Assembly (NCBI RefSeq): GCF_002368415.1 | Contig: NZ_AP018290.1 | Span: 9,849,717 to 9,913,716 of the forward strand | Direction: 5' to 3' | DNA: 64,000 bases | Origin: Calothrix sp. NIES-4105 | GTDB lineage: Bacteria > Cyanobacteriota > Cyanobacteriia > Cyanobacteriales > Nostocaceae | Shown: positions 1 to 64,000 of the stretch, piece by piece | Position numbering within the stretch: position 1 is the stretch's first letter | Layout: every line of letters begins with the position of its first letter | Program-made: the position numbers and the translations under genes | Notes under the pieces: generated by a model | Databases searched by the model: none | What the model saw: only the letters and a program-made list of their open reading frames with translations | What the model was told of the DNA's origin: nothing

Positions 1-59
1 TTGCCTCTGGGGAATTGATTCTTGTTCAACGTAGCAAAAATATTGAAACCTGTAGATAA
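1..59 (+). CDS. C-terminal end of an unidentified protein (partial)
   Basis: An open frame enters the window from the left and ends with TAA at 57-59. It encodes about 18 residues ending in NIETCR. The composition (ELILVQRSKN) looks like ordinary protein, but the piece is too short to assign to a family. It lies 60 bp before a small acidic gene on the same strand. Confidence 0.35.
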   Translation, partial: ASGELILVQRSKNIETCR

Positions 60-118
60 GTGATATACACTTATTTGATGAGGGAAAAAAATTAGCCCTC
101 AAAAGCAGGTGTAAACAG

Positions 119-337
119 TTGACTCAAGTAGAAGGCAATAACAGCGGTAGCGAACCGAAGCTTAACCCCGAAGACATAATTGTCTACGAACCAGTTTTTC
201 CAGCAGGTTCCGAAGAAGAGGAAGAGGCAATCGGTTGGCTTGAAACCGATGTTAAAGGCGAAGAGGGAAGAGTTTTAGATAGCGATGACCTCCCTCCTGA
301 ACTGCGGTCTACTGAACCACACTCGCCAAATGCCTAA
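119..337 (+). CDS. small acidic hypothetical protein
   Basis: This is a 72-residue, strongly acidic protein with a run of five glutamates near residue 33 and no predicted membrane segment or cysteines. It starts at TTG (119-121). No ATG is available in the frame before the conserved-looking body, and no clear ribosome binding site is seen, so the start is uncertain. A good intrinsic terminator follows directly, which supports it as a real transcribed gene. I do not recognise the family. The composition resembles the many short acidic proteins of unknown role in cyanobacteria. Confidence 0.55.
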   Translation: MTQVEGNNSGSEPKLNPEDIIVYEPVFPAGSEEEEEAIGWLETDVKGEEGRVLDSDDLPPELRSTEPHSPNA

Positions 338-351
338 CAGTTAAAGTCCAA

Positions 352-376
352 GCCTCAAGCCTTCTTGAGGCTTTCC
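352..376 (+). terminator. intrinsic terminator
   Basis: A perfect 8-bp stem GCCTCAAG (352-359) pairs with CTTGAGGC (364-371) around a 4-nt loop and is followed by TTTCCTT. It sits 15 bp after the stop of the small acidic gene. Confidence 0.7.
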
Positions 377-400
377 TTACGTCCACTAGGTCTATAAATT

Positions 401-703
401 ATGTTAATTCATCCAGATTATTTTCGTGTATTGTTGCGCCAAAATGGTAAGTGGATTTTAAAAAAATCACGAACTTTTTATAATCGACTTCCGATACAGG
501 TCGATTTTGATGATTTGCAGTTGCTATATGGTATTTCCGAAAAGCAACTGACTAATGAATTATTTAATCTGGCGAACGGGGAAGCTGGCTATTACCTCGC
601 GGACTTACGTCATAAACAGTATTATTATTGCGGCGTAGAGCCAATTAGCGTGAAAGCTAAATTGTTAGACTTAGGTATTGGGCGCCTAGACCCAGTAGCA
701 TAA
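401..703 (+). CDS. hypothetical protein, 100 aa
   Basis: The product is a soluble 100-residue protein. It opens MLIHPDYFRVLLRQNGKW and is rich in tyrosine, with a YYYCG cluster near residue 75. There is no signal peptide and no obvious catalytic motif. The coding pattern, and one GGCGCC site close to its end as in the host genes, fit a genuine resident gene. It precedes a HigA-type antitoxin gene by about 90 bp, but it does not read like a HigB/RelE toxin: the basic RelE-type core is missing. Function unknown. Confidence 0.6.
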   Translation: MLIHPDYFRVLLRQNGKWILKKSRTFYNRLPIQVDFDDLQLLYGISEKQLTNELFNLANGEAGYYLADLRHKQYYYCGVEPISVKAKLLDLGIGRLDPVA

Positions 704-795
704 CCAAAATCCTGTATTCTGGTTAGGTACAAAGGCGCCTAATGAGCAATAATTATCTCGTGCAGTTACATTACGCGCCCTTGTATATTAGAGAT

Positions 796-1143
796 ATGCT
801 AACTCCTAAAAAACGTCCTCCATCACACCCTGGTGAAATATTACTCAAAGATTTCCTAGAGCCAATGGGAATATCACACCAAGAACTCGCAGATGCACTC
901 CACGTACCTCAAGAGCGAATTAATGAAATTGTAAATGAAAAGCGTGGTATTACGATAAGCACAGCATTAAGATTATCAAAGTTTTTTGGAAATAGTTTAC
1001 AGTTCTGGTTAAATCTTCAGCAAAACTGGGAGCTTTTTTATGTGCTTAAGGAAGAAAAACATGACATTGAAACAATTGCTAGTTTATCTTTAGCAAATCA
1101 TGAACACGGCATTAATAATGAGGAATATAAAAATCACATGTAG
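796..1143 (+). CDS. higA: HigA-family addiction-module antitoxin (orphan)
   Basis: This is an XRE-type helix-turn-helix protein of the HigA family. The diagnostic opening RPPSHPGEILLKDFLEP is followed by the HTH (MGISHQELADALHVPQERI) and the family signature ITISTALRLSKFFGNS, then FWLNLQ. HigA proteins bind and neutralise a HigB ribosome-dependent RNase and repress their own promoter. I chose ATG 796, which places the RPPSHPGE motif close to the N-terminus as usual. An upstream in-frame ATG at 742 would add 18 unconserved residues. Normally higB lies directly upstream, but the 92 bp available cannot encode it and the preceding 100-aa gene does not resemble it. The antitoxin therefore appears to be orphaned. 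Confidence 0.8.
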   Translation: MLTPKKRPPSHPGEILLKDFLEPMGISHQELADALHVPQERINEIVNEKRGITISTALRLSKFFGNSLQFWLNLQQNWELFYVLKEEKHDIETIASLSLANHEHGINNEEYKNHM

Positions 1144-1165
1144 TTAATAATTTTTATAAAATCTT

Positions 1166-3022
1166 ATGGATAAAAATTTAAAAGAAGAAGCAGCAAATAA
1201 AAATACATCTGGAGAACGCTTAGAAGAATTAACCAAGATTAATAAAGAACTAGCAGCAATTGTTGCTCAAAATCATGCTGCTCCACCACAGTTATTAGCT
1301 CAATTATATTCTATTCCAAATCAAAGCATTAGAAAAAGTCTCGCACAAAATCCTAATACACCTATCAAGCTTTTGTGGCAGTTAGGAATTGATTTTCCCC
1401 AAGCTTTATTGTCTAATCCTATTTTGATTACTTTACGTATAGAAAACCCTGATTCATTAAAACAAATTCCAGTTGAAACTTTAATACAGCTTTTAAAATA
1501 CGAACAAGTACCAACTTTGTGGTTAGACTTTGCATCCGAACAAGCGGATAAAAAAATAGCTTTGTCGATGCTAATGAATCCTAAAACTTCTTTAAACCAA
1601 TTAAATAACTTATTTAAATTATTTGATGAAGCTTCTGAATTATATTATGATCGTCATGAATACAAGAAAGCATATCAAGATGCATGGGAAGTTTTATATA
1701 GTATTGATTATCACATTAACTGGGGACAAGAACTGAAAGAGGAATGGCAAGAAGAAGCTGTCTGTAATATCATTGACACTCACTATTGTGATAGAGGATA
1801 TGGAAAGTACTTAAAGAGCATCTTCCAGTTTGAAATTGATAATTTATTAATAAATATAGTTAATAATTCATCTTTTAATCATCCTATTTATAAAAATGTT
1901 TGTAGTGAAATTTTAAAGAAACTTTTAAAATTTTTACAAAAAGAAAGTAAATTTTCATTAGCTAGAAATAGCGTGGATGTCAAAATACTAACAGAATTAT
2001 TAACGGATGAAGACCGTCATTTCAATATGACAAAGGCAATGCTTGAAAATCCTAACCTTCCTCAAAAAATACTGGTAGAAATATTAGAAGTATTAATTGT
2101 CAAAAAAGATTCGATTAAGTTAATTAATGATAGTATGTTTCGTCAGGTGCTTATTAAAGCTAAAATTCCTAACGATTTGTTAGAAAAAATTGCAAACAAA
2201 AAAGACTATGAGTGGAAACTTTTTGTTACGGAATACCCAAATACACCTGTTTTTATTCTTGAAAAATATGCTCAATCTTTAAATAATCAAATCCTTGTTA
2301 ATGTAGCGAGTCATCCCAACACACCTCAAAAAATTCTTTGTCAGCTAGCAGTAGCTGATAACTGGTCAATCAAGTATGCTGTCGCTCAAAACCCTAATAC
2401 TCCTAAAGCAATATTAAAAAATTTAACTATTCAAAATCGCTACTCTTTTAACTCATCATTAGCTAATAATTCAAATATTCGGAATATGGATTTTTGGCGT
2501 CTAGCAAGAAATGATAATACACCCACGGAGGTATTAGAGACAGTAGCTTTATTGGCTGATGATTATCGTGTACGTATACATGTTGTTTTAAATGAAAATG
2601 TCACTACTGAAATTTTACAAATATTAGCAAAAGATTCTGATTATGAAGTTCGTTATACTGTTGCAAGAAATAAAAAAACACCAATCAGTATTCTCGAAAA
2701 ATTAGCAGAAGATTCTGATGACGAAGTTCGTTATGCAATATTAACTAATCCCAACTTAGCGAAAAAGCATTTTTTACAATTATTTCGTAAAATATACGGT
2801 ATAGAAAACAATTCTTTAGGCTGTTTAATAGCCTTGTTAGATTATAACGTCTCGCCCAAATTTCTAGATGAGAATGCTGATTCTCTACTGTGGATAGAAC
2901 GCTATGTAATTGCAATTCATCCTAAAACATCTCCAGATACTTTGCAACGTTTAACTCAAGATGCTAACGGCTATGTACGTGCTGCTATAGCGATGCATCA
3001 ACAATTTAAAATAACTCAGTAA
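1166..3022 (+). CDS. LRV/HEAT-like repeat protein
   Basis: This 618-residue all-helical repeat protein is built from units resembling the leucine-rich-repeat variant (LRV). Each unit has an (A)xNPNTP turn followed by an ILxxLA helix and a 'D..VRY.VA.N' helix. Clear copies start near residues 62, 297, 357, 383, 405, 453, 503 and 590. The middle part (about 130-290) is less regular. Such proteins are protein-interaction scaffolds; I see no catalytic motif and no N-terminal iron-sulfur cysteine cluster as in Azotobacter LRV. The gene is AT-rich and has no GGCGCC site in 1.86 kb, unlike the host genes, which hints at a recent arrival. It ends 16 bp before xisI and is probably cotranscribed with it. 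Confidence 0.7.
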   Translation: MDKNLKEEAANKNTSGERLEELTKINKELAAIVAQNHAAPPQLLAQLYSIPNQSIRKSLAQNPNTPIKLLWQLGIDFPQALLSNPILITLRIENPDSLKQIPVETLIQLLKYEQVPTLWLDFASEQADKKIALSMLMNPKTSLNQLNNLFKLFDEASELYYDRHEYKKAYQDAWEVLYSIDYHINWGQELKEEWQEEAVCNIIDTHYCDRGYGKYLKSIFQFEIDNLLINIVNNSSFNHPIYKNVCSEILKKLLKFLQKESKFSLARNSVDVKILTELLTDEDRHFNMTKAMLENPNLPQKILVEILEVLIVKKDSIKLINDSMFRQVLIKAKIPNDLLEKIANKKDYEWKLFVTEYPNTPVFILEKYAQSLNNQILVNVASHPNTPQKILCQLAVADNWSIKYAVAQNPNTPKAILKNLTIQNRYSFNSSLANNSNIRNMDFWRLARNDNTPTEVLETVALLADDYRVRIHVVLNENVTTEILQILAKDSDYEVRYTVARNKKTPISILEKLAEDSDDEVRYAILTNPNLAKKHFLQLFRKIYGIENNSLGCLIALLDYNVSPKFLDENADSLLWIERYVIAIHPKTSPDTLQRLTQDANGYVRAAIAMHQQFKITQ

Positions 3023-3038
3023 ATAGGCGCCGCAGTTT

Positions 3039-3374
3039 ATGGAAAAAGTAGTAAAATACCGTCAACTTGTACAACAAACGTTACTTGAGCATGGTAAGTA
3101 TAAGTACGCTTATGGTGATGTTGAAGTACAAACAATTTTTGACACAGAGCGTGACCATTATCAAGTAGTTTATGTTGGTTGGGATGAAGAAAATTGGATT
3201 CACAGTTGCATTTTACATATTGATATTAAGGATGGTAAAATATGGCTTCAATGCAATGGGACTGAAGACGATATTGCCGCAGATTTTGTTGAGCAAGGAG
3301 TAAGTAGGGAGGATATTGTTTTAGCGTTTCATCCTCCTTACATGCGAAAGTTTACAAAATATGCTGTGGGTTAA
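3039..3374 (+). CDS. xisI: XisI-family protein
   Basis: The 111-residue protein matches the XisI family named after the fdxN-element excision factor of heterocystous cyanobacteria. It opens MEKVVKYRQLVQQTLLEHG, then shows DVEVQTIFDTERDHYQVVYVGW, the central HIDIKDGKIWLQ.NGTED strands and the ending GVSREDIVLAFHPPY. The length is typical (110-115 aa). XisI normally partners XisH, encoded just upstream; here the upstream neighbour is an LRV-repeat gene and no xisH is seen. Most cyanobacterial xisI copies are far from any fdxN element and probably do something other than developmental excision. Confidence 0.85.
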   Translation: MEKVVKYRQLVQQTLLEHGKYKYAYGDVEVQTIFDTERDHYQVVYVGWDEENWIHSCILHIDIKDGKIWLQCNGTEDDIAADFVEQGVSREDIVLAFHPPYMRKFTKYAVG

Positions 3375-3394
3375 GTATAAATTAAATATTGCTA

Positions 3395-3454
3395 GGTGCG
3401 TGAAAGCAGAGAGTTTTTCGTTTATGTTGAGGTTTGTAATGGCTTTCACGCACC
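3395..3454. repeat. inverted repeat of the GGTGCGT/ACGCACC type
   Basis: GGTGCGTGAAAGC (3395-3407) is perfectly complementary to GCTTTCACGCACC (3442-3454). It lies between convergent genes and touches the stop codon of the minus-strand gene, so it may also act as a terminator. A second element with the same outer sequence but a different inner arm lies at 21617-21676, also touching a gene end. Confidence 0.7.
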
Positions 3455-4198
3455 CTACGTTTTTAATTGTTGCTGATTCTTGAAACTTTTGAAACCGTAT
3501 CTAAAGATTTGGTCATCGTAATAGCGAGAGTTCCACTCACTAATTGGTTTTCCAACTAATGTTTCCCATTTTCGTAGTGCTTCTTCTAACAACGGTTGAT
3601 TTTTAATTGCATAGAAGTGATTATCTTGCCAATGTAAATTTAGTTGGTCTAATGTCCTCTCTACCCAAACATCTGTAGAAGTTTCAAAGCTAATGCTACT
3701 GTCTGTTGGTATTAACACTTCATCATCCTCTGATGGTTCCATTACAAAGCCAAAATAAAATGTAGCTGCTTTAGGTATACGAAAAGAGTTTGATATGTTT
3801 CCGTTTATTATATCTTTTGGCTCTTCGATAGATATATGTAAGTCGCAGTTAATAAAAATCGTGGTAAATAAACACGTTTCTGGATTGCTTAAAGACAATT
3901 TTAGTTCTTGCAAAATCTGTGTATTACTTTTTCCTTGAATAATTAAAACTTCTCCTTCTTGTACTTTTTCGACTTTGCCATCTAAATCAAAACTTATAGT
4001 ATTATAATGAATCTCTATTGGTATACACAACTTTTCAAATGTCGATAAAAATACTTTAATTACCCCATAAACATAATTATTTAAAGAAGATATAGATTGA
4101 GCGTCAGGTACGCCTAATTCTATATCCCAAGAGCCTGTTTCTTCTTTAAATCCAAATGTGTCAGTTTTGAATACAATATCTCTAAATTGACTTTTCAT
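3455..4198 (-). CDS. putative immunity protein for the adjacent CDI-type toxin
   Basis: This is a 247-residue soluble acidic protein without a signal peptide. I do not recognise a named family. Its start overlaps the end of the upstream toxin-like gene by 4 bp (ATGA type), which is the arrangement expected of a toxin-immunity pair, and base composition is the same in both (AT-rich, no GGCGCC). The role as immunity protein is therefore inferred from position alone. The C-terminal half is rich in aromatic residues (WVERTLDQLNLHWQDNHFYA), common in protein-binding partners. Confidence 0.55.
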   Translation of the reverse strand: MKSQFRDIVFKTDTFGFKEETGSWDIELGVPDAQSISSLNNYVYGVIKVFLSTFEKLCIPIEIHYNTISFDLDGKVEKVQEGEVLIIQGKSNTQILQELKLSLSNPETCLFTTIFINCDLHISIEEPKDIINGNISNSFRIPKAATFYFGFVMEPSEDDEVLIPTDSSISFETSTDVWVERTLDQLNLHWQDNHFYAIKNQPLLEEALRKWETLVGKPISEWNSRYYDDQIFRYGFKSFKNQQQLKT

Positions 4199-4878
4199 TT
4201 TAGTATCTCACTATAAGACCCATTAACATTTCCATCTGCTGTACGCACCATGAAGCTTCTTTTTAAAATGGTTTTATTACTTACCGTTTCTGGGTAAATT
4301 ATCTCCAAGTAGTCGATATTCCTTAATTGAGCATCGCTAGCGAAACGGTTACCTTTCATTTTACCATTAAGATATCTTTCAACATCTGCCTGGTGTAAAC
4401 CATCTGAACGAGCTAGCGAACCATCAATAATAATGTCTCCATTTCCTTCCTTAGACTGCTTAATCTGATTATTCGCTTTATCTATCTGTTTATTAAGGTT
4501 ACTTTTCGTAATCTGTTTTCCTGGTTCACGGAATTTTACATCTACTCTAGCAGTTTCAGCTTGTTCTGGAAATCTAACGCGAAGATCAGGACTAAAAGGT
4601 TCATCAATTACTGGTGTGTCACCTGCTGGTGTTTCTGACGTAGGGCGAACTATTTCGACTTCATAGCCTGTATCAGCATATCTTTCTGCTAGCCTTAGTT
4701 CTGCTTGAATATCATAGTTTCCTACACGTGCCTGATTAATTTTTTTGACCAACTCGCTATGTGGTAATCCTCGAACTCCTTTTTCTCTAAGACGTTTCTC
4801 CCAAGTCTCAAAGTTAATTTCTCCATTGTTATCACAAGGAGGGTCTGTGGGATGTTTTATTACGGGGCGCCCTGTCAT
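4195..4878 (-). CDS. orphan CdiA-type C-terminal toxin domain (nuclease)
   Basis: This 227-residue protein reads like the free C-terminal tRNase domain of CdiA/polymorphic toxins. AELRLAERYADTGYEVE (59-75) is followed by SPDLRVRF (97-103), VDVKF (112-116), QIDKANNQIK (131-140) and DIIID (148-152). Candidate active-site residues are E60, D98 and the D113-x-K115 pair of a PD-(D/E)XK-like fold. The N-terminal secretion part of a CdiA protein is absent. A stop lies two codons before the ATG, so this is a stand-alone cassette of the kind found as displaced toxin modules, and no Shine-Dalgarno is seen. The downstream gene overlaps by 4 bp and is the likely immunity gene. Confidence 0.65.
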   Translation of the reverse strand: MTGRPVIKHPTDPPCDNNGEINFETWEKRLREKGVRGLPHSELVKKINQARVGNYDIQAELRLAERYADTGYEVEIVRPTSETPAGDTPVIDEPFSPDLRVRFPEQAETARVDVKFREPGKQITKSNLNKQIDKANNQIKQSKEGNGDIIIDGSLARSDGLHQADVERYLNGKMKGNRFASDAQLRNIDYLEIIYPETVSNKTILKRSFMVRTADGNVNGSYSEILK

Positions 4879-5170
4879 TGGTTATGGTAGATGGTGCTTG
4901 CTGTGTTTATTTTTGCCTAATGCAGAAAATATTAACCTACCACATTGATGAAAAACGCTTACCTTACATCTTGCACCTTGACTTTATTGAGAATCAAAGA
5001 GCGCGTGTTCTGCTTATTTTTACGTAGGGTGGGCAGTGCCCACCTTACCCTTATTGAGAAGGTGCAAGTTAGGAGTTACGCTGTTAGTAGAATTTATGAT
5101 TCAGTCTCGCGCAACATGGTAATCTGACATATGGATGGGTGTTGGCGCCCGACATCAGGAGTAGCAGCAT
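4879..5170. other. intergenic region with hairpin repeat
   Basis: There is no gene in this stretch. It contains the dispersed hairpin GGTGGGCAGTGCCCACC (core within 5024-5048), relatives of which lie at about 16793, 21234 and 33232. It also holds the leader of dhaK, whose ribosome binding site AGGAG is at 5157-5161. Confidence 0.6.
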
Positions 5171-6244
5171 ATGAAGAAGCTGATTAATAAACCTGAAGAC
5201 TTTGTACGCGAGAGTCTAGAAGGAATGGCAATTGCCCATGAGGATTTAATAAAAGTTAACTTTGACCCGACTTATGTTTACCGCGCGGATGCACCAGTAC
5301 AGGGTAAGGTCGCTATTATTTCTGGTGGTGGTAGTGGTCATGAACCAATGCACGCGGGATATGTGGGTATGGGTATGCTTGACGCAGCATGTCCTGGTGA
5401 GGTTTTTACGTCCCCAACTCCTGACCAAATGCTTGAAGCTGCAAAACAAGTTGATGGCGGTGCCGGTATTTTATATATAGTTAAAAATTACAGCGGTGAT
5501 GTGATGAACTTCGAGATGGCTACTGAAATAGCTTACTCAGAAGGTATCAAAGTACTTAATATTCTGATTGATGATGATGTCGCTGTTAAAGATAGCTTAT
5601 TCACTCAAGGGCGCCGAGGAGTTGGAACTACAGTATTAGCTGAGAAAATTTGTGGGGCGGCAGCGCAGCAAGGTTATGATTTACACCAAGTTGCTGATTT
5701 GTGTCGCCGAGTTAGTTTGAATGGTCGAAGTATGGGGATAGCATTGTCATCTTGTACTGTTCCTATGCGGATGTCTCCAACGTTTCATTTAGGCGCCTCA
5801 GAGATGGAAGTAGGTATTGGTATTCACGGTGAACCTGGTAGAAAGCGTATAGATGTATTGCCCGCGAATGAAATAACATCGATGTTGGCTTTATCGATTC
5901 TCGAAGACGGGCAGTACAAAAGAACTGTACGTGAGTGGGATATGGACAATGGTAAATGGATAGATGTGGAATTGATTAGCCCCGGATTTCAAAAAGGTGA
6001 TAAATTTTTAGCTTTTATTAATAGTATGGGTGGAACCCCTATTTCAGAACTTTATATTATTTATAGAAAGTTAGCTCAAATTTGTGACAATAGGGGATTA
6101 CATATCGTTCGCAGCTTGATTGGCCCTTATATTACTTCTTTGGAGATGCAAGGTTGCTCAATAACTTTACTTAAATTAGATGATGAGATGATTAAGTTAT
6201 GGGATGCTCCTGTAAAAACTCCAAGTTTTTGTTGGGGGGTTTAA
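5171..6244 (+). CDS. dhaK: PTS-dependent dihydroxyacetone kinase, substrate-binding subunit DhaK
   Basis: DhaK binds dihydroxyacetone covalently and receives phosphate from DhaL-ADP/ATP, giving dihydroxyacetone phosphate in the cytoplasm. The 357-residue protein has the [10 protein letters not shown] motif (51-60) and the hemiaminal-forming histidine in [10 protein letters not shown] (His219). These are the two key sites of the family, and the length is typical (about 330-360). A good ribosome binding site (AGGAG) lies 9 bases before the ATG. It is the first gene of a three-gene operon with dhaL 31 bp downstream and a dhaM-ptsH-ptsI fusion after that, so the phosphate donor should be PEP. Two or more GGCGCC sites in the gene suggest long residence in this genome. 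Confidence 0.95.
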
Positions 6245-6275
6245 TCAAAATCAATAATTATAACCAGAAGGTCGA

Positions 6276-6896
6276 ATGAATACCGAACAAATTTTGCGTT
6301 GGTTGCAGCGATTTGCCACCAAAATCGAACAAAATAAAGAATATTTGACCGAATTAGATGCTGCTATTGGTGATGCTGACCACGGTATCAATATGGAACG
6401 TGGTTTCAAAAAGCTACTTACTCAACTGCCTACTTACTCGTCTAAGGACATTGGCAGTATTCTAAAAGCGGTGAGTATGACTTTAATTTCTAGTATCGGA
6501 GGCGCCAGTGGTCCATTGTATGGTACATTTTTTCTGCGTGCTTCATCTGCTGTTGCCGATAAAGATGAACTTACTGAGTATGATATGCTAGACATGCTCA
6601 AAGCTGGTTTAGATGGAGTAATGGAACGTGGTAAAACTCAGCTAGGTGATAAAACAATGCTCGATGTACTTTACCCAGCAGTAACAGCGTATGAAAAAGC
6701 AGTAAGTGAAGGTAAACCGATGCGTGCGGCAATGCAGCAAGCTTTAGATCGAGCAGAACAAGCACTCAAAGAAACCTCAATGCTGCAAGCTAAAAAAGGT
6801 CGTGCTAGTTATTTGGGTGAACGTAGTGTTGGACATCAAGACCCAGGCGCCGCTTCATGTTACTTAATGTTGAAGTGTCTTTGCGATAGTTTGTAA
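6276..6896 (+). CDS. dhaL: dihydroxyacetone kinase, ADP-binding subunit DhaL
   Basis: This 206-residue subunit carries tightly bound ADP/ATP and passes phosphate from DhaM to DhaK-bound dihydroxyacetone. The magnesium-binding aspartate motif DAAIGDADHG is at 28-37 (D28, D33, D35), followed by the conserved GGASGPLYGTFF nucleotide loop (about 76-87) and the GDKTMLDVLYPA helix. Length and motif order are those of PTS-type DhaL proteins rather than of the fused ATP-dependent kinases. It sits between dhaK and dhaM and is surely cotranscribed with them. Confidence 0.95.
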   Translation: MNTEQILRWLQRFATKIEQNKEYLTELDAAIGDADHGINMERGFKKLLTQLPTYSSKDIGSILKAVSMTLISSIGGASGPLYGTFFLRASSAVADKDELTEYDMLDMLKAGLDGVMERGKTQLGDKTMLDVLYPAVTAYEKAVSEGKPMRAAMQQALDRAEQALKETSMLQAKKGRASYLGERSVGHQDPGAASCYLMLKCLCDSL

Positions 6897-6987
6897 AAAT
6901 GGTATTGCTAGTAGTAGGACTTCAGTCCTTATATTGTTATTACACAACAAACAAAACCTAATCGAGCATCGGAGTTAACAGCAGACA

Positions 6988-9534: not shown

Positions 9535-9544
9535 AAAGCAAGCC

Positions 9545-9660: not shown

Positions 9661-9761
9661 TTATTAAAATATAAACCCTCAAAATATTTTTACAAAAAAA
9701 ATCCGGGGTTAGTTAATTTAGACAAAAATATATCAGGAAAAAATAATGCCCCTAGTTAGCA

Positions 9762-11430: not shown

Positions 11431-11446
11431 TAGATATAGCAATAAT

Positions 11447-15518: not shown

Positions 15519-15525
15519 AACTTAT

Positions 15526-53408: not shown

Positions 53409-53444
53409 CTAATATTGAAACACTAATAAATAGAAATTATATAT

Positions 53445-55466: not shown

Positions 55467-55629
55467 TCAAATGTGGGGTTACTCTTTGGATTTGCCCAAC
55501 TGCGTTTTTTAAAATTTGGCGTTGTATAATTCTAGAATAGTTTGAATTTATACTAGTATTTTATACGGTGCCAAATTTATCTCCTTAGATAAATAATTAC
55601 TTTTTTAATAAAAAATTTATAGAGAGCGT

Positions 55630-57450
55630 ATGAAAAGTCTAATTAATATTGAATCAATTTTAAAATCATTAAAATTGGATAGTTTTTGTACTAGTGATGA
55701 TACTGTTATTTCTAAATCACCTAAATCGGAAATCTCATTGCTGGATGAGCAAACAAATCAAACAAACAGCAAAGTATTTTTTGATACTACAATAGTAGAC
55801 CAAACTTACAGATTATCAAAAGAGTGTGAAAACAAAAACGTTAAATTAATAATTAGCATAGAAAGATTATTTTGGACTAAGTTTGACAGAATTATAATTA
55901 ATGAATACTATTATTCTCTGAAACAGAATGGTTACTTGATATTAATTATTTCTCCTGAGTTTAAGGATTCAGCATATTACCTTAAAGACCTTTTATTTAA
56001 AGAATATAAAGGTAGCTTTGAATTTGTTAGTTGTACAAACCTTAACGGTTGTGATGTTGTTTGCTTCCGCAAAACCGATATTCCAAGAGTTGCGGAAAGT
56101 GATATTAAGAAATGGACTTTTGGTTTTATTGGTAATGGGAAAAAAGATAAGTTTATTGACGAACAAATAAAGCGTATTCAAAAACTTCCTCTTAAAGATT
56201 GGGAAGTGATAATTTGCGGTACATATAATCTACCTCTTGAGGATGAAAAAGTAAAGTATATTAATTTTACAGAGAATGATGATAAAGGTTGGATAACAAA
56301 GAAAAAGAATTTAATTGCTCAAGCTGCTACATATGAAAATTTAGTCATTCTCCATGACCGATACATTATACCAGATGACTTTGTAGAGAAAATGGAAGAA
56401 TGGGGAAACGATTTTGAACTGTTAGGTGCAAAACAGGTTTTATATCGTAGTCCTTTAAGAATAGATCAAGTCAGGATTCAAGACTGGATGATGAGTCCTT
56501 ATGGTGTACAGGTTGATAAAGAAACTAAATGGAAATTCCAATTTTTCTTTTTGGAATACACAGACTGGGATATTTTAGCGTATATAGTAGGTGGTTTATA
56601 TATAGTTAAAAAATCTCTAATGTTAAAGATTCCTCAAAATGAAGAACTATTTTGGTATTTTCCAGAAGATTTGACATTTTCGCAAGATTTTTCTACTAAT
56701 GGTTATTGCGTAAGAATCAATACAAAACTCAAATTTGAAACTGTCTCATTTGCTCACGAAGTTGAATTTGTACCTCATAGAATTGTTAGTGATAAAAGAT
56801 ACTTAGGTAATATTAAGACTGACATTAATCCTTCATATATATATGAAAGATTTGTAGAAAAATTAATGCCAAAATATATGGAGTCTAAATATGAAATAGA
56901 AACTAAAGGCGCCTTAAAACTACTTTTTGGAGATAATATACCTAGTTATATACTTGAGGCTAATCCTATTAGCACTATACGTTCGGAGAATGATTTAATA
57001 ATTTGGTATTACCAGTTAATGACTATAGATTATGTCAGACTTATGTTTTGCCAAATGAGTGCAGAGCAAAAAATACAAACTCTACATAAAATAATTCTGC
57101 GTCGGAGAATTACAGATACCTATTTACTAAGTAATATGGTAACTGCTTTTAAAGAATCTCATTTATATGATGAAAGGGCAGTTATTAAATCTTTTCTTGA
57201 GGATACTGGAGAATTGCAAAGAAGAATCAGAAACTTAACAGTTCCTAATTATCCATTCGATACAGTTAAAAATATGTTACACATCAGGTTAGCTTTATTA
57301 TGTAAACCAATTGCAATATTCCTAATTAAAACATTGTATCAAAAACAGAGATTATACAGAATTATCGCTTCAACTGCCAGATTTTTTTTCAAATCATTTA
57401 TGTGGTTTACTCCATATAAAATCAATTCATATACTTCTAAACAAAGTTAA
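55630..57450 (+). CDS. large GT-A-like glycosyltransferase, paralogue 1
   Basis: The 606-residue protein has an N-terminal remnant of a SAM-methyltransferase-like fold (about 50-150, ending with EYYYSLKQNGYLILII). A GT-A-like domain follows (about 160-400): KWTFGFIGNGKKDKF, DWEVIICGTY, KGWITKKKNLIAQAATYENL, LHDRYIIPDDF at 241-251 (probable metal-binding motif in place of DxD), IVGGLYIVKKSLM and PEDLTFSQDF. A helical C-terminal part ends with a membrane-like segment (about 560-590). It is clearly homologous to the protein encoded at 57676. It probably adds a sugar to the exported glycan. Confidence 0.7.
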   Translation: MKSLINIESILKSLKLDSFCTSDDTVISKSPKSEISLLDEQTNQTNSKVFFDTTIVDQTYRLSKECENKNVKLIISIERLFWTKFDRIIINEYYYSLKQNGYLILIISPEFKDSAYYLKDLLFKEYKGSFEFVSCTNLNGCDVVCFRKTDIPRVAESDIKKWTFGFIGNGKKDKFIDEQIKRIQKLPLKDWEVIICGTYNLPLEDEKVKYINFTENDDKGWITKKKNLIAQAATYENLVILHDRYIIPDDFVEKMEEWGNDFELLGAKQVLYRSPLRIDQVRIQDWMMSPYGVQVDKETKWKFQFFFLEYTDWDILAYIVGGLYIVKKSLMLKIPQNEELFWYFPEDLTFSQDFSTNGYCVRINTKLKFETVSFAHEVEFVPHRIVSDKRYLGNIKTDINPSYIYERFVEKLMPKYMESKYEIETKGALKLLFGDNIPSYILEANPISTIRSENDLIIWYYQLMTIDYVRLMFCQMSAEQKIQTLHKIILRRRITDTYLLSNMVTAFKESHLYDERAVIKSFLEDTGELQRRIRNLTVPNYPFDTVKNMLHIRLALLCKPIAIFLIKTLYQKQRLYRIIASTARFFFKSFMWFTPYKINSYTSKQS

Positions 57451-57675
57451 AGAAAAATCATGTTGATTTTTCATAATAAAAAAGTCATTTTGAGGTTTAT
57501 GCTAAATCCTAATTTTGTGCTGACATTTTTATTAGTTAATAATTATTGATAATTAGTCTGTGGAAGCAAGGTTTTTGTTTGATAACTTACCGCGAACACT
57601 CAAAAATCAAGATGCTTAAGAGCAATGTAATATACTTACTACAATTCTAAAGATTTTCTGATCAAGGATTAATAA

Positions 57676-59394
57676 ATGTTAAACCCAGATTCAATAGAGA
57701 GACTAATCAAAATAGGACTCCCAGAAGTATATGTAGAGCGCAAGCAAATATTAATTTCTAGTGATAAAAGCGAATTTCATACAACTGATTTTTGTATAGA
57801 TAATTTACCTATTAATCAATGCTACCGAATCTCACAAAAATTTCATGAGATAAAAATTATAATTAGTAGTGGCAAACTATTTATAAGTAAATATGATTGG
57901 ATTATTTGGTATGAATATTATTCTATTTTAGAACCATCAGGATATTTACTCATTTTAACGGAAAAAAATTATGATGAATTAAACATTCCTGAATACTTTC
58001 AATCAAAGTTTAAACTCTTAAATCAATTTCATGTAGAACAAAATACTTACTGTTTCTGTCTACAGAAAACAGATGTTTGTAATTTATATAAACTTGATGA
58101 CATACAGAAATGGTCATTTGGGTTTATTACTAATGGAAGTAAAAATGAATTTATTAATGAGCAGATAAATAGAATAGCTAATTTGGGTTTAGATGAGTGG
58201 GAAGTAGTAATATGTGGAACATTTGAACTGTCATTATCTCATCAAGAACATGTTAAATATATTCCTTTTACCGAACAAGATGATAAGGGTTGGATTACAA
58301 GGAAAAAGAATTTAATTTGTCAAGCTGCAACTTATGAAAATTTGGTAATACTTCATGACCGTTACATTATTCCACTTGATTTTTTAGAAAAAATGAAGCT
58401 ATGGGGTAACAATTTTGACCTACTTGGAGCAAGACAAATTTACTATCCTTCGCCACTAGACCGAACTCCAATTAGATGTCAAGACTGGATGACTTACTCT
58501 AGACCATTAGAAGTAGAAAAAAAAGACCGTTCCTGCGATAATATTGGTCTACTTCAAGCAGAAGACTGGGATAAATGGTGTTATATAACTGGTGGATTAT
58601 ATATAGTCAAACGTTCTTTAATGTTAAAAGTGCCTCAAGACGAAGATTTATTTTGGAACGAAGTAGAAGATATTAAATTTTGTCACGACTTTACAAAGGC
58701 TGGCTATTTAATTAGATTTAATCCTTATCTCATCTTTGAATCTGTATCTTATAGATGGACTGCTTTAGCTGTGCAGTATAATCAAAACCAACATCAATTA
58801 GGTGAAAAGCGGATTTCTCAAGAAACATTAACCTATTGGTATTTATTATTACTGGATTTATTATTTTTATCTAATGAAATAAAACAAGCTTTAAATTTAT
58901 TTGCAGATGATTTTTTGAATAAAATCAAACATAATATACTCCATAATCCAAATAATTGTTTAAATAAAATTCAACGTTATGACATTACTAAAGTTGGGCA
59001 ATTAAAACAATTTTGTCAAGAAATTTTGCTGATGCCTCAAGTTTATGAGTCAATTAAAAATATTGATAAAGTTACGCAAACTCGTTTAGCATTTAATTTG
59101 ATTTTAGGCCGTTCACCATCTCCTCATGAAGAAGTTATATGGCTAGAAAAACATAAACCATTTGATGAAATAGTTATTGATTTGCTTTCTCTTCCTGATT
59201 TTCAGTATAAAATCAGCAATAATGCTCGTGCTAAGTATACAAAAGAACAAAATTATAATTTGTTGTTAAAAATAATACTATTAATCAAACCTTTGATTTT
59301 ATTTGTAATTGCCTTAATCACAAATTTAGTAATTTTTAATCCTCAAATATTTGTGCTAACAAAAAAGATAATTAAAACAATTATTTTTAAATAA
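57676..59394 (+). CDS. large GT-A-like glycosyltransferase, paralogue 2
   Basis: The protein (572 aa) shares its plan with the preceding gene product: a methyltransferase-like remnant (about 45-130; EYYSILEPSGYLLIL), then the GT-A-like core (about 145-370) with KWSFGFITNGSKNEF, EWEVVICGTFE, KGWITRKKNLICQAATYENL, LHDRYIIPLDF (226-236), ITGGLYIVKRSLM and VEDIKFCHDF. Near residues 470-520 lies a DUF4214-like helical piece (RLAFNLILGRSPSPHEEVIW...LLSLPDFQ). A hydrophobic C-terminus (about 535-560) suggests membrane attachment. It is the last gene of the island. Confidence 0.7.
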   Translation: MLNPDSIERLIKIGLPEVYVERKQILISSDKSEFHTTDFCIDNLPINQCYRISQKFHEIKIIISSGKLFISKYDWIIWYEYYSILEPSGYLLILTEKNYDELNIPEYFQSKFKLLNQFHVEQNTYCFCLQKTDVCNLYKLDDIQKWSFGFITNGSKNEFINEQINRIANLGLDEWEVVICGTFELSLSHQEHVKYIPFTEQDDKGWITRKKNLICQAATYENLVILHDRYIIPLDFLEKMKLWGNNFDLLGARQIYYPSPLDRTPIRCQDWMTYSRPLEVEKKDRSCDNIGLLQAEDWDKWCYITGGLYIVKRSLMLKVPQDEDLFWNEVEDIKFCHDFTKAGYLIRFNPYLIFESVSYRWTALAVQYNQNQHQLGEKRISQETLTYWYLLLLDLLFLSNEIKQALNLFADDFLNKIKHNILHNPNNCLNKIQRYDITKVGQLKQFCQEILLMPQVYESIKNIDKVTQTRLAFNLILGRSPSPHEEVIWLEKHKPFDEIVIDLLSLPDFQYKISNNARAKYTKEQNYNLLLKIILLIKPLILFVIALITNLVIFNPQIFVLTKKIIKTIIFK

Positions 59395-59485
59395 TTAGAA
59401 TGGAATGTTATTAAAGCTGCACCGACGATAAAGGTGCCCATAAAAAAATAGCAGTATTTAGAAATCACGCATTCTTGTTAGGGGA

Positions 59486-62071
59486 TCACAACCAATTCCC
59501 TATCAAAACAAACGGCGCCCAATAAAATGGATGTTTAAAAGCTGGTTCTCTTAATAATGCAATTTGAGCATTGCGTAGCGCTTCAGCTTTAGTAACATTG
59601 GCGAGTGAAAGTTGTTTGTAAAACTCAACCATAAAGGCAGAAGTTGAGGTATCATCTACTGACCATAAAGTTGCTATTGTACTACGGGCGCCACTTCTTA
59701 CAGCCATACCCGCAAGTCCTAAAACCGCGCGTTTATCACCATCAGCAGTTTGACAAGCACTTAACACTAATAGTTCAATTGCATTACTATCATTTGAAGC
59801 ACGGTTTTGCAGCAACTCACCAAGCTGCTTTACATTAATTCGATTATCCCAAGTCAGTACAAAAGTTTCATCAGCGTTTGAGCTAAATTGACCGTGGGTT
59901 GCAAGGTGGACTACTGGGTAACGAGTAGTGTTAACTTGTTTCTCAATTGCTTTAGTAGTAAAAGTTTGATTTAGGAGTACTTGTGCGGGAACCTTGGTTT
60001 TGATTTGATTAATTTCACTCTCAACTCCTGGTAATGGAACAAAACCTTGTCGTGCTTCGCTAAGTCCACCAGCGAGTACCTTCAAACTCTTTGTTTCAAG
60101 AGGACGGGGAGCAAATAACTGTAAACCTGGAGTTAATGCCAAATTATATTTCTCTACAAGATACCGTTGCCCGTCGTATAATATCGCCATTGGCAAGTTT
60201 TTCATGGCGCCGTCAAGAACAAACGCCAAAGTTTTGATATTATTGCGTTGCAAATCAGCTTCGACAGGTAAAATTAGTAAATTATATAGTTGTTGAGTTA
60301 TATTTAATCGGTCTTTTTGACTTGAAGTTCTATGCAGCGAACGACGCATTTTGTCAAACATTTTCTCAAGTTGAGCTTGCGGTATTATCGAAACGTAGTG
60401 ACGTAGTGGTTGATTTGGTATTGAGGCAATTACTTCAAAACGGTCTTTAAGAATAATCGGGTATATTACTGCTGCACTTTTATCAATTTGGTCGATTTGT
60501 TGCGGACGCGCGGTTAAACATGCTTCACGAAAATAGTTATCTAACTCAGCTAGCTGTAATGATTCGATAACTTCGCGCGCTTTTTTGAGATTTTCTTGAC
60601 TAACGTTTGTAACCGCTTCGTTTGTCTTACTAGCAATAAGCTTCGGTTGCAGTAGTAAACTTACTAACTCACGATATACAGGTTCGACGCTTTCACGAAA
60701 AGAAAACTGAACATCTACGTTACTTGACACTAAGTCATTACGAATATACCCAAGAGTTTTAACGGCTTCATTATAAGACGTAATTGCCTCCTGTATATTT
60801 CCTTGTGCTTTGAGCAGGCGCCCTATTTGCCATTGCCAGCGATACGCAATATCAGGAGCATTACTAAGAAGCGCTAAATTCAAAGCTTGCTTAGTTAACT
60901 TTTGCGCTTCACCGAACTGCTGCGAAACTTCATAAAGCTCACCTAAGTAACCTAGTGCATAAGATTGCGCTCTTTTATCACCAATGCTTTCAGCGTTTTT
61001 TGCCGCAGTCGCAAGAAGAAGTGCTGAGTGATGAGTGCTGAGTGCTGAGTTTTGAGTAAGATTTCGTAGTTTTTTTAGACTTTGGGCAAAGTTAACTTGT
61101 GCGTAAATAGAAGTTCTACTGGGAGGTAATGTGTCAAGCTGTGGTTGAATTTGTTCGATAAGCGAAAAAGCTTCATCCCTTTGTTCGGTTTCTACGAATA
61201 ATCGTAATAGGTTTAATTGTGCCTGTAGTTTAATATGAGGATTCGACGCAGCAATAACTTGTTTATAGTATTCTTGTGCTTTCTCGGTATCTTGAACGCG
61301 CGCACTTGAACCCAGACTTAACAGCACCAAGCTCACGTCGTCCTTTAAATTCAGCTTTTGAGCAAGTTCCAGAGTTTGCTGTAGTGTTTGAATAGAAGCT
61401 TTTCTGTCACCCATCAACCGCAATGTATCACCCAAGTGAAATAAAACTGCGACTTTAAGCTCTGAGTCTGGTTCTTTTTGTAGACTTTGGCTAACTTCCT
61501 CTAAATTTGAAGAAGCACGTCGATACATTCCCAATGCTCGCAGTGCTTTTGACTCGTTTAATAAACTGCGCGCGGTAAGTGCTTTATCTCCTAACTTCTT
61601 ATATATAGATGTCGCTGACTCCCATGTTGACAGTGCTTGTTCTGCTTGTCCTTGCGATAACTGTAAACTACCCTGAACATTCAAAGCGCTTGCTAAAAGA
61701 CTTTGATTTGTTGTGTTTTGAAGTAGCTTTAAGCTTTGGGATATTGCAGTATTCGCTTGTTGCCAGTCTCCTAGCTGCTGGTACGAAGACGCTAAATTAG
61801 TTAACACAACCGCAGTATTGATGCTATCACTTTGGGCTATCAGCTTTTGGGCTTGGCGCCAGAGTTGAATCGCATCTGCAAATTGTCCTGCTTGGTACTT
61901 TTGTTTTCCAGCTTGTATTAGTTCTACGGTTGAGTTAGACGTTGAAGGTACTGCTGCAATAACCGCAGTATTAGCATGGTGAATAAAAACGCTATTACTT
62001 AATACCGCTGTCAAGATAGCGACAAACAGCCCTAAGCTAAAGCGCTGAAGGGCTTTGCGAATATAAGACAT
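59486..62071 (-). CDS. CHAT-domain protease-like protein with TPR repeats
   Basis: An N-terminal signal or anchor segment (FSLGLFVAILTAVLSNSVFI) is followed by a long array of about ten TPR units (to about residue 460). The C-terminus is a caspase-like CHAT domain with the catalytic His in VHLATHGQFSS and Cys in LLVLSACQTADGD, 47 residues apart, and the typical GARSTIATLWSVDD ending. CHAT proteins are peptidases in cell-death-like or signalling roles; the secreted TPR-CHAT type is common in filamentous cyanobacteria. I chose ATG 62071, close to the signal peptide; ATG 62110 adds 13 basic residues. A gtgctgagt repeat is inserted in frame (61020-61057). Confidence 0.85.
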   Translation of the reverse strand: MSYIRKALQRFSLGLFVAILTAVLSNSVFIHHANTAVIAAVPSTSNSTVELIQAGKQKYQAGQFADAIQLWRQAQKLIAQSDSINTAVVLTNLASSYQQLGDWQQANTAISQSLKLLQNTTNQSLLASALNVQGSLQLSQGQAEQALSTWESATSIYKKLGDKALTARSLLNESKALRALGMYRRASSNLEEVSQSLQKEPDSELKVAVLFHLGDTLRLMGDRKASIQTLQQTLELAQKLNLKDDVSLVLLSLGSSARVQDTEKAQEYYKQVIAASNPHIKLQAQLNLLRLFVETEQRDEAFSLIEQIQPQLDTLPPSRTSIYAQVNFAQSLKKLRNLTQNSALSTHHSALLLATAAKNAESIGDKRAQSYALGYLGELYEVSQQFGEAQKLTKQALNLALLSNAPDIAYRWQWQIGRLLKAQGNIQEAITSYNEAVKTLGYIRNDLVSSNVDVQFSFRESVEPVYRELVSLLLQPKLIASKTNEAVTNVSQENLKKAREVIESLQLAELDNYFREACLTARPQQIDQIDKSAAVIYPIILKDRFEVIASIPNQPLRHYVSIIPQAQLEKMFDKMRRSLHRTSSQKDRLNITQQLYNLLILPVEADLQRNNIKTLAFVLDGAMKNLPMAILYDGQRYLVEKYNLALTPGLQLFAPRPLETKSLKVLAGGLSEARQGFVPLPGVESEINQIKTKVPAQVLLNQTFTTKAIEKQVNTTRYPVVHLATHGQFSSNADETFVLTWDNRINVKQLGELLQNRASNDSNAIELLVLSACQTADGDKRAVLGLAGMAVRSGARSTIATLWSVDDTSTSAFMVEFYKQLSLANVTKAEALRNAQIALLREPAFKHPFYWAPFVLIGNWL
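61020..61057. repeat. STRR repeat inserted inside the CHAT/TPR gene
   Basis: About 38 bp of the gtgctgagt family (AGTGCTGAGTGATGAGTGCT and following) lie within the coding sequence. They encode NSALSTHHSALL on the minus strand between two TPR units. The frame is kept. Confidence 0.7.
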
Positions 62072-62376
62072 TTTAGTGAACTTTACGTGTTTATTCTGTT
62101 TTAATAACATCAGTATATTTAACTATATTTAAAATAGTTATGGTATTGAATTATTCTTACTGTTATAGCTTCTGATTAATTAAAATGAGAATAGTTAAGT
62201 TAATTTACAAAATTGAATTACATAAAGAAAGAGGAATTTGTGCATTGGTCAGGCAGGACACCTAAGCTACACGCTAAAAATATTAACAACATCTGTCAAT
62301 AGTGGTTAAATACGAATCTAACTAAGGCAGGGTTAATGTAAAAACGCAGGTTTCTATGATGTTGGAAGTGTAAAGG

Positions 62377-62402
62377 AAAAACCCAAAGTTAAGGGTTTTT
62401 TT
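62377..62402 (+). terminator. terminator-like hairpin in the leader of the helical carotenoid protein gene
   Basis: AAAAACCC (62377-62384) pairs with GGGTTTTT (62393-62400) around an 8-nt loop, followed by more T. It ends 25 bp before the start codon, too close for a promoter in between, so it may be an attenuator. The rest of the 62072-62426 gap is AT-rich with no other structure seen. Confidence 0.6.
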
Positions 62403-62426
62403 CAAAGAAAGCAATCGGAGAATATT

Positions 62427-62897
62427 ATGACGACATCTTACTTTGCAACCAACGATAAAGTTAAAAAAGCTTTGGAAAATTTCCAAAACTTTGATGTAGA
62501 TACTCAACTAGCGTTGTTTTGGTTTGGCTATCTCGACTTAAAAGAAAAACTCACACCTGCAAATAGCCCATCTTCCCAAGCAACAGCAGAAGCAGTTTTC
62601 AACCAAATTGTTGCGATGTCTTATGAAGAACAGTTACAAGCACAGCGCGATATCGCAGGTCACGCAAATTCCGAAATTAGTAAACTGTACGGTGGTCTAG
62701 ACCCAAGTGCTAAACTTGACGTGTGGTTGAGACTCGCGCAAGCTATGGAAGATGGTAGAGTTACACCATTTCCCCAAGACTATAAACTCCCAGAAAACAC
62801 CAACCAATTCGTACAAGAAGTAAAATCTCTCGAATTTGAAGAAAGTGTCGAATTCTCCCGCCAGACAGCATTCAGTATGGGCGCCACTATTAGTTAG
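62427..62897 (+). CDS. hcp: helical carotenoid protein (OCP N-terminal domain homologue)
   Basis: The protein (156 aa) corresponds to the carotenoid-binding N-terminal domain of orange carotenoid protein alone. FDVDTQLALFWFGYLDLKEKLTPA is the diagnostic helix pair, followed by EEQLQAQRDIAGH and LYGGLDPSAKLDVWLRLAQAM. The C-terminal NTF2-like domain is missing, as in HCP proteins, which quench singlet oxygen or phycobilisome excitation. The start is at ATG 62427 with CGGAG upstream. A strong terminator follows. The subtype within the HCP clades cannot be told by eye. Confidence 0.9.
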   Translation: MTTSYFATNDKVKKALENFQNFDVDTQLALFWFGYLDLKEKLTPANSPSSQATAEAVFNQIVAMSYEEQLQAQRDIAGHANSEISKLYGGLDPSAKLDVWLRLAQAMEDGRVTPFPQDYKLPENTNQFVQEVKSLEFEESVEFSRQTAFSMGATIS

Positions 62898-62920
62898 TAC
62901 TAGTATATAATAACTTTCTT

Positions 62921-62960
62921 TAGATTCCCGACTCCTTAAAAAAGTCGGGAATCTAGTTTT
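62921..62960 (+). terminator. intrinsic terminator
   Basis: TAGATTCCCGACT (62921-62933) and AGTCGGGAATCTA (62943-62955) form a perfect 13-bp stem followed by GTTTTT. It ends the helical carotenoid protein gene. Confidence 0.85.
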
Positions 62961-62978
62961 TCAGCAAAGTTAAATTAT

Positions 62979-63581
62979 ATGGCATTTGAAGACCAGCTAG
63001 AAACAGTTTACGCACAAGACCGTCAACAATGGCGCCTATGGTTAGAGAAAAATTACGATATTTCTATTGGCATATGGTTAATCTACTATAAAGTTAAAAG
63101 CGGTAAACCAAGTATCAAGTACAACGAAGCAGTGAAAGAAGCTTTATGTTTTGGTTGGATTGATAGCAAAGTCAAAACTCTAGATAAAGAACGCTACATG
63201 CAAATATTTACACCTCGAAAATCTAAGAGTGTTTGGTCAAAACTGAATAAGCAATATATAGAAGAACTTATTGAAACAGGTTTAATGACTGAAGCTGGTA
63301 TCAAGAAAATTGAAGCAGCGAAGCAAGATGGTTCATGGACTAGTTTAGATGCTATCGAAGCATTGTTAATTCCACCAGATTTACAGCAAGCATTAGAAGC
63401 TTCGGATGCAGCTACAAAATACTTTGCAGGATTTAGCAATACATCCAAGAAGAATATACTGCAGTGGATTAAAAGCGCGAAACGCCCAGAAACTCGATTA
63501 AAACGCATAGAGCAAACTATAATTTCAGCATCACAAAACAAAAATCCTCTGGTTAAAGATACAAATAAAATCAAGTCATAA
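62979..63581 (+). CDS. YdeI/OmpD-associated family protein
   Basis: The protein (200 aa) matches the YdeI family: WRLWLEKNYDISIGIWLIYYKV at the start, then YNEAVKEALCFGWIDSKVKTLD and RYMQIFTPRKSKSVWSKLN (the hallmark middle), ending in FAGFSNTSKKNILQWIKSAKRPETR. Family members have been linked to bacteriocin or antimicrobial-peptide resistance in proteobacteria; the molecular role is not known. It is 18 bp after a terminator, so it has its own promoter or relies on readthrough. Confidence 0.8.
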   Translation: MAFEDQLETVYAQDRQQWRLWLEKNYDISIGIWLIYYKVKSGKPSIKYNEAVKEALCFGWIDSKVKTLDKERYMQIFTPRKSKSVWSKLNKQYIEELIETGLMTEAGIKKIEAAKQDGSWTSLDAIEALLIPPDLQQALEASDAATKYFAGFSNTSKKNILQWIKSAKRPETRLKRIEQTIISASQNKNPLVKDTNKIKS

Positions 63582-63663
63582 TTAGAGAAATCTATCTACT
63601 GATAGATGAATATTTGGTTGTAGAGTGAGAGCCTCGATTTAATTATTTAATAGGTTGTATCTC

Positions 63664-64000
63664 ATGTTATTAAAAGAGTATATTGCTCATCGTCTAATTG
63701 GTACACCTTTAGAACCAATAGCGCGCAGTCTACGCGATTTAACACAAATAAAACAACGAATTCAGCATCCCGAACTTCACGAAATTTATCATGAATCATC
63801 GCTAATAGATGCTGCATTACCTCGAATCATCGATAAATCAATGAATTGTATTGATGTCGGCGCCCATTTAGGTTCAGTATTAAGTGTTATAAAAGAACTT
63901 TCTCCACACGGAAAACATATTGCTATCGAACCAATACCCTATAAATACCAATGGTTAAAGCAGAAATATCCAGATGTAAAAGTTTTGCAAGTCGCCGTTA
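63664..64000 (+). CDS. FkbM-family SAM methyltransferase (partial)
   Basis: The frame begins at ATG 63664 and runs off the window after 112 codons. MNCIDVGAHLGSVLSVIKEL is the SAM-binding glycine loop and AIEPIPYKYQWLKQKY the acidic strand-2 position, both typical of FkbM-type methyltransferases that modify sugars or lipids. Such enzymes often accompany surface-glycan genes, like those ending at 59394. Confidence 0.8.
   Translation, partial: MLLKEYIAHRLIGTPLEPIARSLRDLTQIKQRIQHPELHEIYHESSLIDAALPRIIDKSMNCIDVGAHLGSVLSVIKELSPHGKHIAIEPIPYKYQWLKQKYPDVKVLQVAV

Follow-up and report, generated by a model that had tools for sequence, protein, structure and literature searches.

Most cyanobacteria carry the highly iterated palindrome HIP1 (GCGATCGC) at a reported 300 to 2700 copies per Mb, and it has long been asked why they keep one palindrome in such numbers, running to thousands of copies. 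The closest described systems are the alternate HIPs of Elhai 2015 (PMC4390886), which in the portions of that paper drawn on throughout comprise GGCGCC in Calothrix PCC 7103 and in Calothrix D253 fragments (Robinson 1995, as cited there), GCSGC in Cyanothece PCC 7822, and RCCGGY in Oscillatoria PCC 10802. Those portions describe two GRCGYC methyltransferases in PCC 7103 and no recognisable GGCGCC-specific one, propose that the sites arise as a by-product of repair that takes its cue from methylated GC, and argue that alternate HIPs turn up sporadically and fail to persist in clades. Among open-licence papers, we found no further literature on GGCGCC in cyanobacteria. Here, we analyze a 64,000-bp stretch of the Calothrix sp. 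NIES-4105 genome (the window; G000:C1:9849717-9913716, GC 37.8%), in which GGCGCC stands in place of HIP1, together with the 12.04-Mb source genome (G000), its genus and family, and a sample of the phylum. The use of GGCGCC as a HIP substitute is already published for a genus-mate; new here are its genus-wide presence, an apparently orphan methyltransferase of the predicted HindVP class, a methylation-type loss spectrum, sites that are retained over long times although their short-term loss is ordinary, and a candidate for a second origin.

The window contains 98 copies of GGCGCC, versus 2.9 expected from base composition and 4.8 from a first-order Markov model, and first-order simulations (n = 30) gave a mean of 4.6 and a maximum of 10. 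A maximal-order model expects 45, an excess of only ≈2-fold, but the sub-words from which this model is built lie largely within GGCGCC itself. The complete genome has 18,131 copies of GGCGCC and just 7 of CCGCGG, its reversed form used as control; this is the genome-wide excess of a GC-rich palindrome that characterizes an alternate HIP, while HIP1 is near background (125 copies; control, 75). The first-pass annotation of this DNA had noted about a hundred copies where few were expected, a frequent CGCGCG, and a single HIP1, all of which are borne out (Table 1). It had also named two outcomes that would speak against a replacement of HIP1, a genome-wide GGCGCC count near Markov expectation and abundant GCGATCGC elsewhere, and neither was found. 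An explanation in which codon use, GC content, or repeats yield the hexamer, and GGCGCC is no HIP, could appeal to the 45 of 98 sites that are in-frame GGC-GCC (Gly-Ala) codons. However, 45 of the 69 Gly-Ala codon pairs in predicted frames are GGCGCC where codon use predicts 1.5, CCGCGG occurs just those 7 times in 12 Mb, the sites fall in all three frames and in spacers (16 of 98 are noncoding), and none of the 98 lies inside a tandem array called by TRF over the window. This explanation is refuted, and we accord it practically no credence; of the settings that the first-pass annotation had listed for the sites, Gly-Ala codons and spacers hold, and tandem-repeat units do not.

To place the window in context, we used a family set of 217 genomes, of which seven belong to the genus (Calothrix/Dulcicalothrix): G000, Dulcicalothrix desertica PCC 7102 (G060), Calothrix PCC 7103 (G061), HK-06 NIES-2101 (G062), the metagenome-assembled genome C42_A2020_038 (G063), FI2-JRJ7 (G064), and PCC 7716 (G065). 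All seven harbor 7,475 to 20,380 copies of GGCGCC (1150-1711 per Mb), and the swap is found in none of the 210 others, where the maximum is 1,053 copies in a 9.5-Mb genome with a control count of 1,270. HIP1 shows the reciprocal pattern, with 31 to 163 copies per genus genome versus 535 to 8,803 in 209 of the 210 others, the exception being G182 (3.2 Mb, 88% complete) with 30. The swap of GGCGCC for HIP1 is genus-wide, and the first-pass proposal that this lineage replaced HIP1 is correct, though the case of PCC 7103 had been published. In a tree built from eight core regions, G063 is basal, followed by G000 and then by five species that are ≈96% identical (the E group); the other genus species are 80 to 88% identical to G000 in core DNA by two measures. 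Because all genus genomes, including the basal G063, carry GGCGCC, the alternate HIP is most simply older than the genus split, contrary to the argument (not a definition) that such palindromes are sporadic.

The PCC 7103 report thus describes the same hexamer, the same loss of HIP1, and the same methyltransferase class in what is here G061, and differs in that seven species share the trait, two of them with a single enzyme copy, whereas the paper, in the portions cited, denied persistence in clades. Like HIP1, the GGCGCC palindrome reaches hundreds to thousands of copies per Mb and contains a predicted methyltransferase target; unlike HIP1, it does not have the sequence GCGATCGC, which is tied to GATC and CGATCG methyltransferases and not to GRCGYC. 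The GCSGC and RCCGGY alternates likewise combine low HIP1 with a high, methyltransferase-linked, GC-rich palindrome, but have other motifs, each reported in a single genome in the cited text. Two further ideas were rejected: when HIP1 sites from two outgroups are aligned to three clade genomes, the changes are scattered and do not point to conversion of old HIP1 sites into GGCGCC, and in 40 kb of G194, another family member, none of the GC-rich palindromes is strongly raised.

Six of the seven genus genomes show a strong depletion of GATC (0.10-0.19 of expectation), and PCC 7103 is reported to contain a candidate restriction gene for GATC and, partly deleted, a methyltransferase gene for CGATCG (PMC4390886), as would suit an account in which HIP1 was purged by a restriction enzyme that cuts GATC or CGATCG and GGCGCC took the vacant place. 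Basal G063 already has the swap, with 185 GGCGCC versus 13.3 expected and HIP1 at background (1 versus 0.8) in its core regions, yet its GATC stands at 0.415 of expectation, a value equal to that of two outgroups (0.42 after HIP1 subtraction; 0.55 in a third). It therefore seems that GATC became extremely depleted only after the palindromes had been swapped, and we rejected its depletion as the first cause. The GATC part of this account is disfavored, and the account as a whole strikes us as quite improbable.

One C5-methyltransferase subfamily, harboring a C5 DNA methylase domain (PF00145, TIGR00675), is common to all seven genus genomes at 80 to 99% identity in a comparison of their C5-methyltransferases that does not extend to every fragment. 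The G000 copy lies outside the window (Table 1). A RuBisCO-like gene flanks the methyltransferase on one side in six of the seven genomes and an SLH/GHL10 gene on the other side in five of those six, with G064 giving a partial match only; the best explanation is inheritance at one chromosomal place in most species of the genus. Paralogs, some broken, are found in five genomes, and G060 and G063 have a single copy (E ≤ 1e-70). More broadly, PF00145 matches number 9 to 17 per genome in G000 and G060-G065, several with stops or a partial domain, pointing to rapid turnover of modification genes in the genus.

Relatives of this enzyme, 56 to 71% identical, occur in 53 family genomes outside the genus, in which HIP1 is present and GGCGCC sites are few. 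A wider scan, from which the best 80 of 408 loci were kept, yielded a pool of 73 loci outside the clade. In 58 of these, a homolog of the RE_HindVP endonuclease adjoins the methyltransferase (some of the 58 are fragments; all were matched to one such gene, itself PF09519 at E 2e-154), and many of these endonucleases carry the WGKNQF and SPERRFD motifs described for BsaHI. An RE_HindVP homolog was found at none of the seven clade loci, within flanks of 3.9 to 21 kb around the gene, the rest of the genomes not having been searched for it. Because the endonuclease adjoins 58 of the 73 outside relatives and none of the clade loci, the clade methyltransferase is predicted to be of the HindVP/BsaHI class with GRCGYC as its target, and the flanks point to an orphan, i.e., an enzyme lacking a neighboring restriction gene. 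The resemblance to the GRCGYC systems HindVP, BsaHI, and HgiDI resides in the methyltransferase, most relatives of which sit beside an RE_HindVP-type endonuclease, many with BsaHI motifs; the clade differs in that the pairing of endonuclease and methyltransferase that marks a GRCGYC restriction-modification system is absent from its flanks, and in that one of the four target words is enriched 25-fold and not avoided.

Word counts around these genes are consistent with this assignment. In the 73 outside loci, the four GRCGYC words are at 0.06 to 0.17 of expectation and 14 neighboring words at 0.57 or above (other RGCGCY words at 0.57-0.73, most other neighbors above 1), except two that contain GGCC (0.35 and 0.39). 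In the clade loci, GGCGCC reaches 24.7 times expectation and ranks highest among 69 words; GACGCC and GGCGTC are reverse complements, and their ranks are not independent.

The base that is methylated can be approached from the way in which sites are lost. M.BsaHI methylates the central C of GRCGYC (PMC2413257), while Elhai 2015, in the portions cited, states that the methylated site is known for no enzyme of this specificity (PMC4390886). The comparisons of aligned hexamers with G000, the core-region tree, and the counts of polarized changes drop overlapping pieces and columns with gaps or missing genomes, and the tree and the polarized counts also drop pieces shorter than 200 bp; the loss spectrum and branch losses require the five E-group genomes to be present, and the terminal-branch gains and losses and private sites require all seven. 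With losses polarized by four sister species and an outgroup, 25 of 29 single-base losses of GGCGCC are C3>T or G4>A, and 4 further losses involve multiple changes. Codon position does not explain this bias, because C3 and C6 are both silent in an in-frame GGC-GCC, yet 15 losses fall at C3 and 1 at C6. Wobble C3>T changes (32/425) exceed C>T at other CpG wobble positions (196/5,195; p = 0.0005); the corresponding count at non-CpG wobble positions is 378/15,460, and C6 wobble changes are lower still (2/390; p = 0.007). Between G000 and its genus-mates, 81 of 100 single differences are also C3>T or G4>A, although all of these comparisons share G000 and are not independent. The inner C of GGCGCC thus appears to behave like 5-methylcytosine, with the loss spectrum expected if it is methylated, and the outer C is held more tightly than an ordinary wobble C.

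Very-short-patch repair is known to shift word counts, and a Vsr endonuclease acting with the methyltransferase might restore or create sites, given that the losses are of the T:G type that Vsr corrects. We rejected Vsr-type repair as the cause because its family, PF03852, occurs in none of the seven genus genomes and in 1 of 217 genomes in the family; this explanation is very improbable.

Aligned GGCGCC sites are identical between G000 and the six genus-mates in 54 to 87% of cases versus 33 to 48% for all hexamers, and GGCGCC ranks first among hexamers with three of the six genomes, third with two, and ninth with one. Losses of GGCGCC on short terminal branches (33/495) exceed those of other hexamers (7,566/185,550, or 4.1%; p = 0.006). 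On the long G000 branch, by contrast, 2/47 sites are lost, whereas other hexamers lose 4,252/17,580 (24%; p = 0.0005) and the GC-rich among them 141/680 (p = 0.004), and on the E-group stem losses number 2/52 versus 3,949/19,233 (p = 0.0015). In-frame sites on the G000 branch follow suit, with 1/28 lost versus 239/807 for other fourfold codon pairs (p = 0.001). Because the short-branch decay does not accumulate on long branches, GGCGCC sites look maintained over long times, by purifying selection or by restoring repair. Among the short branches, the single-copy genome G060 shows 0/99 losses, and the four remaining genomes together show 33/396 (p = 0.001; this contrast was picked post hoc). A paper by Xu, Lawrence and Durand from 2018 reportedly deals with selection for HIP1.

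In the ratchet proposed by Elhai, mismatch repair directed by G-mC turns near-misses into GGCGCC, and abundance is a functionless by-product. Much of what we observe fits: a methyltransferase expected to act on GGCGCC is present in the genus, only the GGCGCC form of GRCGYC is iterated, as the model in its cited form predicts, and the base that the loss spectrum suggests, also the one shown for M.BsaHI, is the base that the model needs. Gaps of 6 to 50 bp between sites are scarce (7 versus 20.2 expected), sites have been gained on the E-group stem (see below), and such repair could also yield retention. On the five short terminal branches, however, 24 losses and no gains could be polarized (under a strict rule for gains), two of the seven genomes have a single enzyme copy, so that the second copy stressed by the model is not needed now, and spacing is otherwise near random (variance/mean of 0.87, 0.96, and 1.21 at 1, 2, and 5 kb), which led us to reject regular spacing as the mark of a saturating ratchet. 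We consider the ratchet unlikely, if still the most serious rival. A palindrome-swapped genus sampled at several divergences is of general use here, since polarized counts can be used to test a selected function against a repair by-product, and these first counts lean towards maintenance.

We therefore favor the reading that GGCGCC is a fixed and maintained alternate HIP of the genus, methylated by an orphan GRCGYC-class enzyme, which as a whole we consider slightly more probable than its contrary. The distribution, the reciprocal loss of HIP1, the presence of the enzyme, the absence of a restriction gene from its flanks, the loss spectrum, and the retention are computed; from these, we infer the target, the methylated base, maintenance by selection, and the role. 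In this scheme, a GRCGYC-class methyltransferase would have been inherited without its restriction enzyme in the genus and would probably methylate the inner cytosine (GG-mC-GCC), creating a C-to-T hotspot. Sites would be kept over long times nonetheless, and their abundance would reflect maintenance (purifying selection or equivalent repair) more than neutral accumulation. The most likely use would be that of a methylated landmark every ≈660 bp doing the work of HIP1, e.g., in strand discrimination or DNA repair.

Several observations weigh against this reading. The enzyme alone is not sufficient for the palindrome, because the 53 HIP1-bearing family genomes carry a relative and few GGCGCC sites, and the 15 outside loci without a restriction gene still avoid GGCGCC (0.10 of expectation). 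The first-pass suggestion of a link to a methyltransferase of matching specificity accordingly survives in part: an apparently orphan C5-methyltransferase is present in all seven genomes, but its predicted target, GRCGYC, is broader than the palindrome. Avoidance of GRCGYC by itself is weak proof of that target, because other palindromes are equally rare in the same 73 loci (GTGCAC, 0.10; GGGCCC, 0.12; GTCGAC, 0.12), and in the clade loci the other three GRCGYC words are rare (0.18-0.36). Loss of GGCGCC on short branches is no higher than that of GC-rich hexamers (463/7,735; p = 0.56), so that the term hotspot applies to the single base C3 and not to the whole site, and these losses vary from 0/99 (G060) to 13/99 (G061) and could include assembly error. 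Only 47 and 52 sites underlie the counts on the two deep branches, all of them in eight core regions for which a single genome served as anchor, and the closest control, other in-frame Gly-Ala pairs, offers only 6 deep cases with none lost. Of 135 sites, 21 are private to the five-species group, i.e., gains on its stem (4 are private to G000 and 12 to G063). The equality with GC-rich hexamers and the stem gains slightly lowered our confidence, and the loss and retention counts do not separate selection from biased repair.

A second candidate origin emerged from a phylum sample of 386 genomes, of which we looked into two, G288 and G424. G288, from another family of the same order, has 9,489 GGCGCC (control, 2,450) in 3.8 Mb, versus 304 to 343 in three genus-mates. 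In 210 kb of G288 (GC 0.546), CGGCGCCG occurs 270 times versus 10.9 expected and HIP1 4 times versus 4.7, whereas two sister genomes keep HIP1 (47 versus 0.3 and 92 versus 0.6 expected). The G288 methyltransferase (L254) is 53 to 54% identical to that of the clade, with a target-domain core 70% identical, and no RE_HindVP homolog lies within 3.9 kb around it; in the three sisters, no C5-methylase is more than 36% identical to the G000 enzyme. G288 thus combines the loss of HIP1 and the gain of CGGCGCCG with a relative of the clade enzyme, probably a second, independent swap and, as such, a replicate. Its motif is not identical, which again counts against a simple reading: AGCGCC and GGCGCT (495 and 455 versus ≈82) exceed expectation too, as does each of the four GRCGYC words, so that enzyme and palindrome are matched less neatly here than in the genus. 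Generalizing from both cases, HIPs might be interchangeable methylated landmarks under selection: at least twice (GGCGCC in the genus and CGGCGCCG in G288), a GRCGYC methyltransferase minus its restriction enzyme would have been co-opted in a lineage without HIP1, and one methylatable GC-rich palindrome built up and kept against its own methylation-driven decay. We offer this only tentatively, as a proposal that we consider less likely than not. The third sister, G234 (L273-L277), has little HIP1 (4 versus 0.9) and raised GGCC (1234 versus 656), suggesting further HIP turnover in the genus of G288. G424 was rejected as a further case, with HIP1 kept (26) and GGCGCC at 21 versus 20.9 expected in 65.6 kb. 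Other phylum genomes with GGCGCC above control include G266, G230, G224, G254, G405, and G481.

Table 1. Positions of the palindromes and other features discussed (window coordinates unless stated otherwise)
Feature	Position	Strand	Basis and remarks
GGCGCC, 98 copies	681..63864 (first at 681, last start 63859)	none	Counts, Markov expectations, frames; about one per 653 bp
CGCGCG, 44 copies (overlaps counted)	5282..61574	none	44 versus 4.3 expected; second, weaker palindrome
Sole HIP1 of the window, GCGATCGC	53851..53858	none	Word count
GGCGCC-poor stretch	50726..59513	none	About 8.8 kb; one GGCGCC (56908); GC 0.322 and 0.283 in two parts; lone HIP1
Frame with joined HAD-hydrolase and ATPase matches	14229..15518		429 amino acids
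Clade methyltransferase, G000 copy	G000:C1:10505801-10506793		Outside the window

CGCGCG follows a different course from GGCGCC. G000 contains 8,759 copies versus 3,257 to 5,058 in its six genus-mates, and in alignments 12 of 56 G000 sites are common to the five-species group, and 12 of 19 of that group's sites are common to G000. CGCGCG looks like a gain of its own in G000, weakly conserved and for the most part recent, unlike the old and conserved GGCGCC, and might be a second palindrome at an early stage, served by a methyltransferase of its own. The GGCGCC-poor stretch encodes ABC-2 export functions, a HAD/nucleotidyl transferase fusion, and two large proteins with no Pfam match; it is probably a recently acquired surface-polysaccharide/ABC-2 export gene cluster, transfer being suggested by its composition, and the density of GGCGCC might be used to recognize foreign DNA. 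GGCC (7 versus 109 expected) and TGCGCA (0 versus 13.9) are strongly avoided in the window, and three outgroups avoid both too. Finally, a HAD-hydrolase C-terminal match and a HerA/DUF87-like ATPase domain are joined in the 429-residue frame of Table 1, which also matches mad8 in PADLOC.

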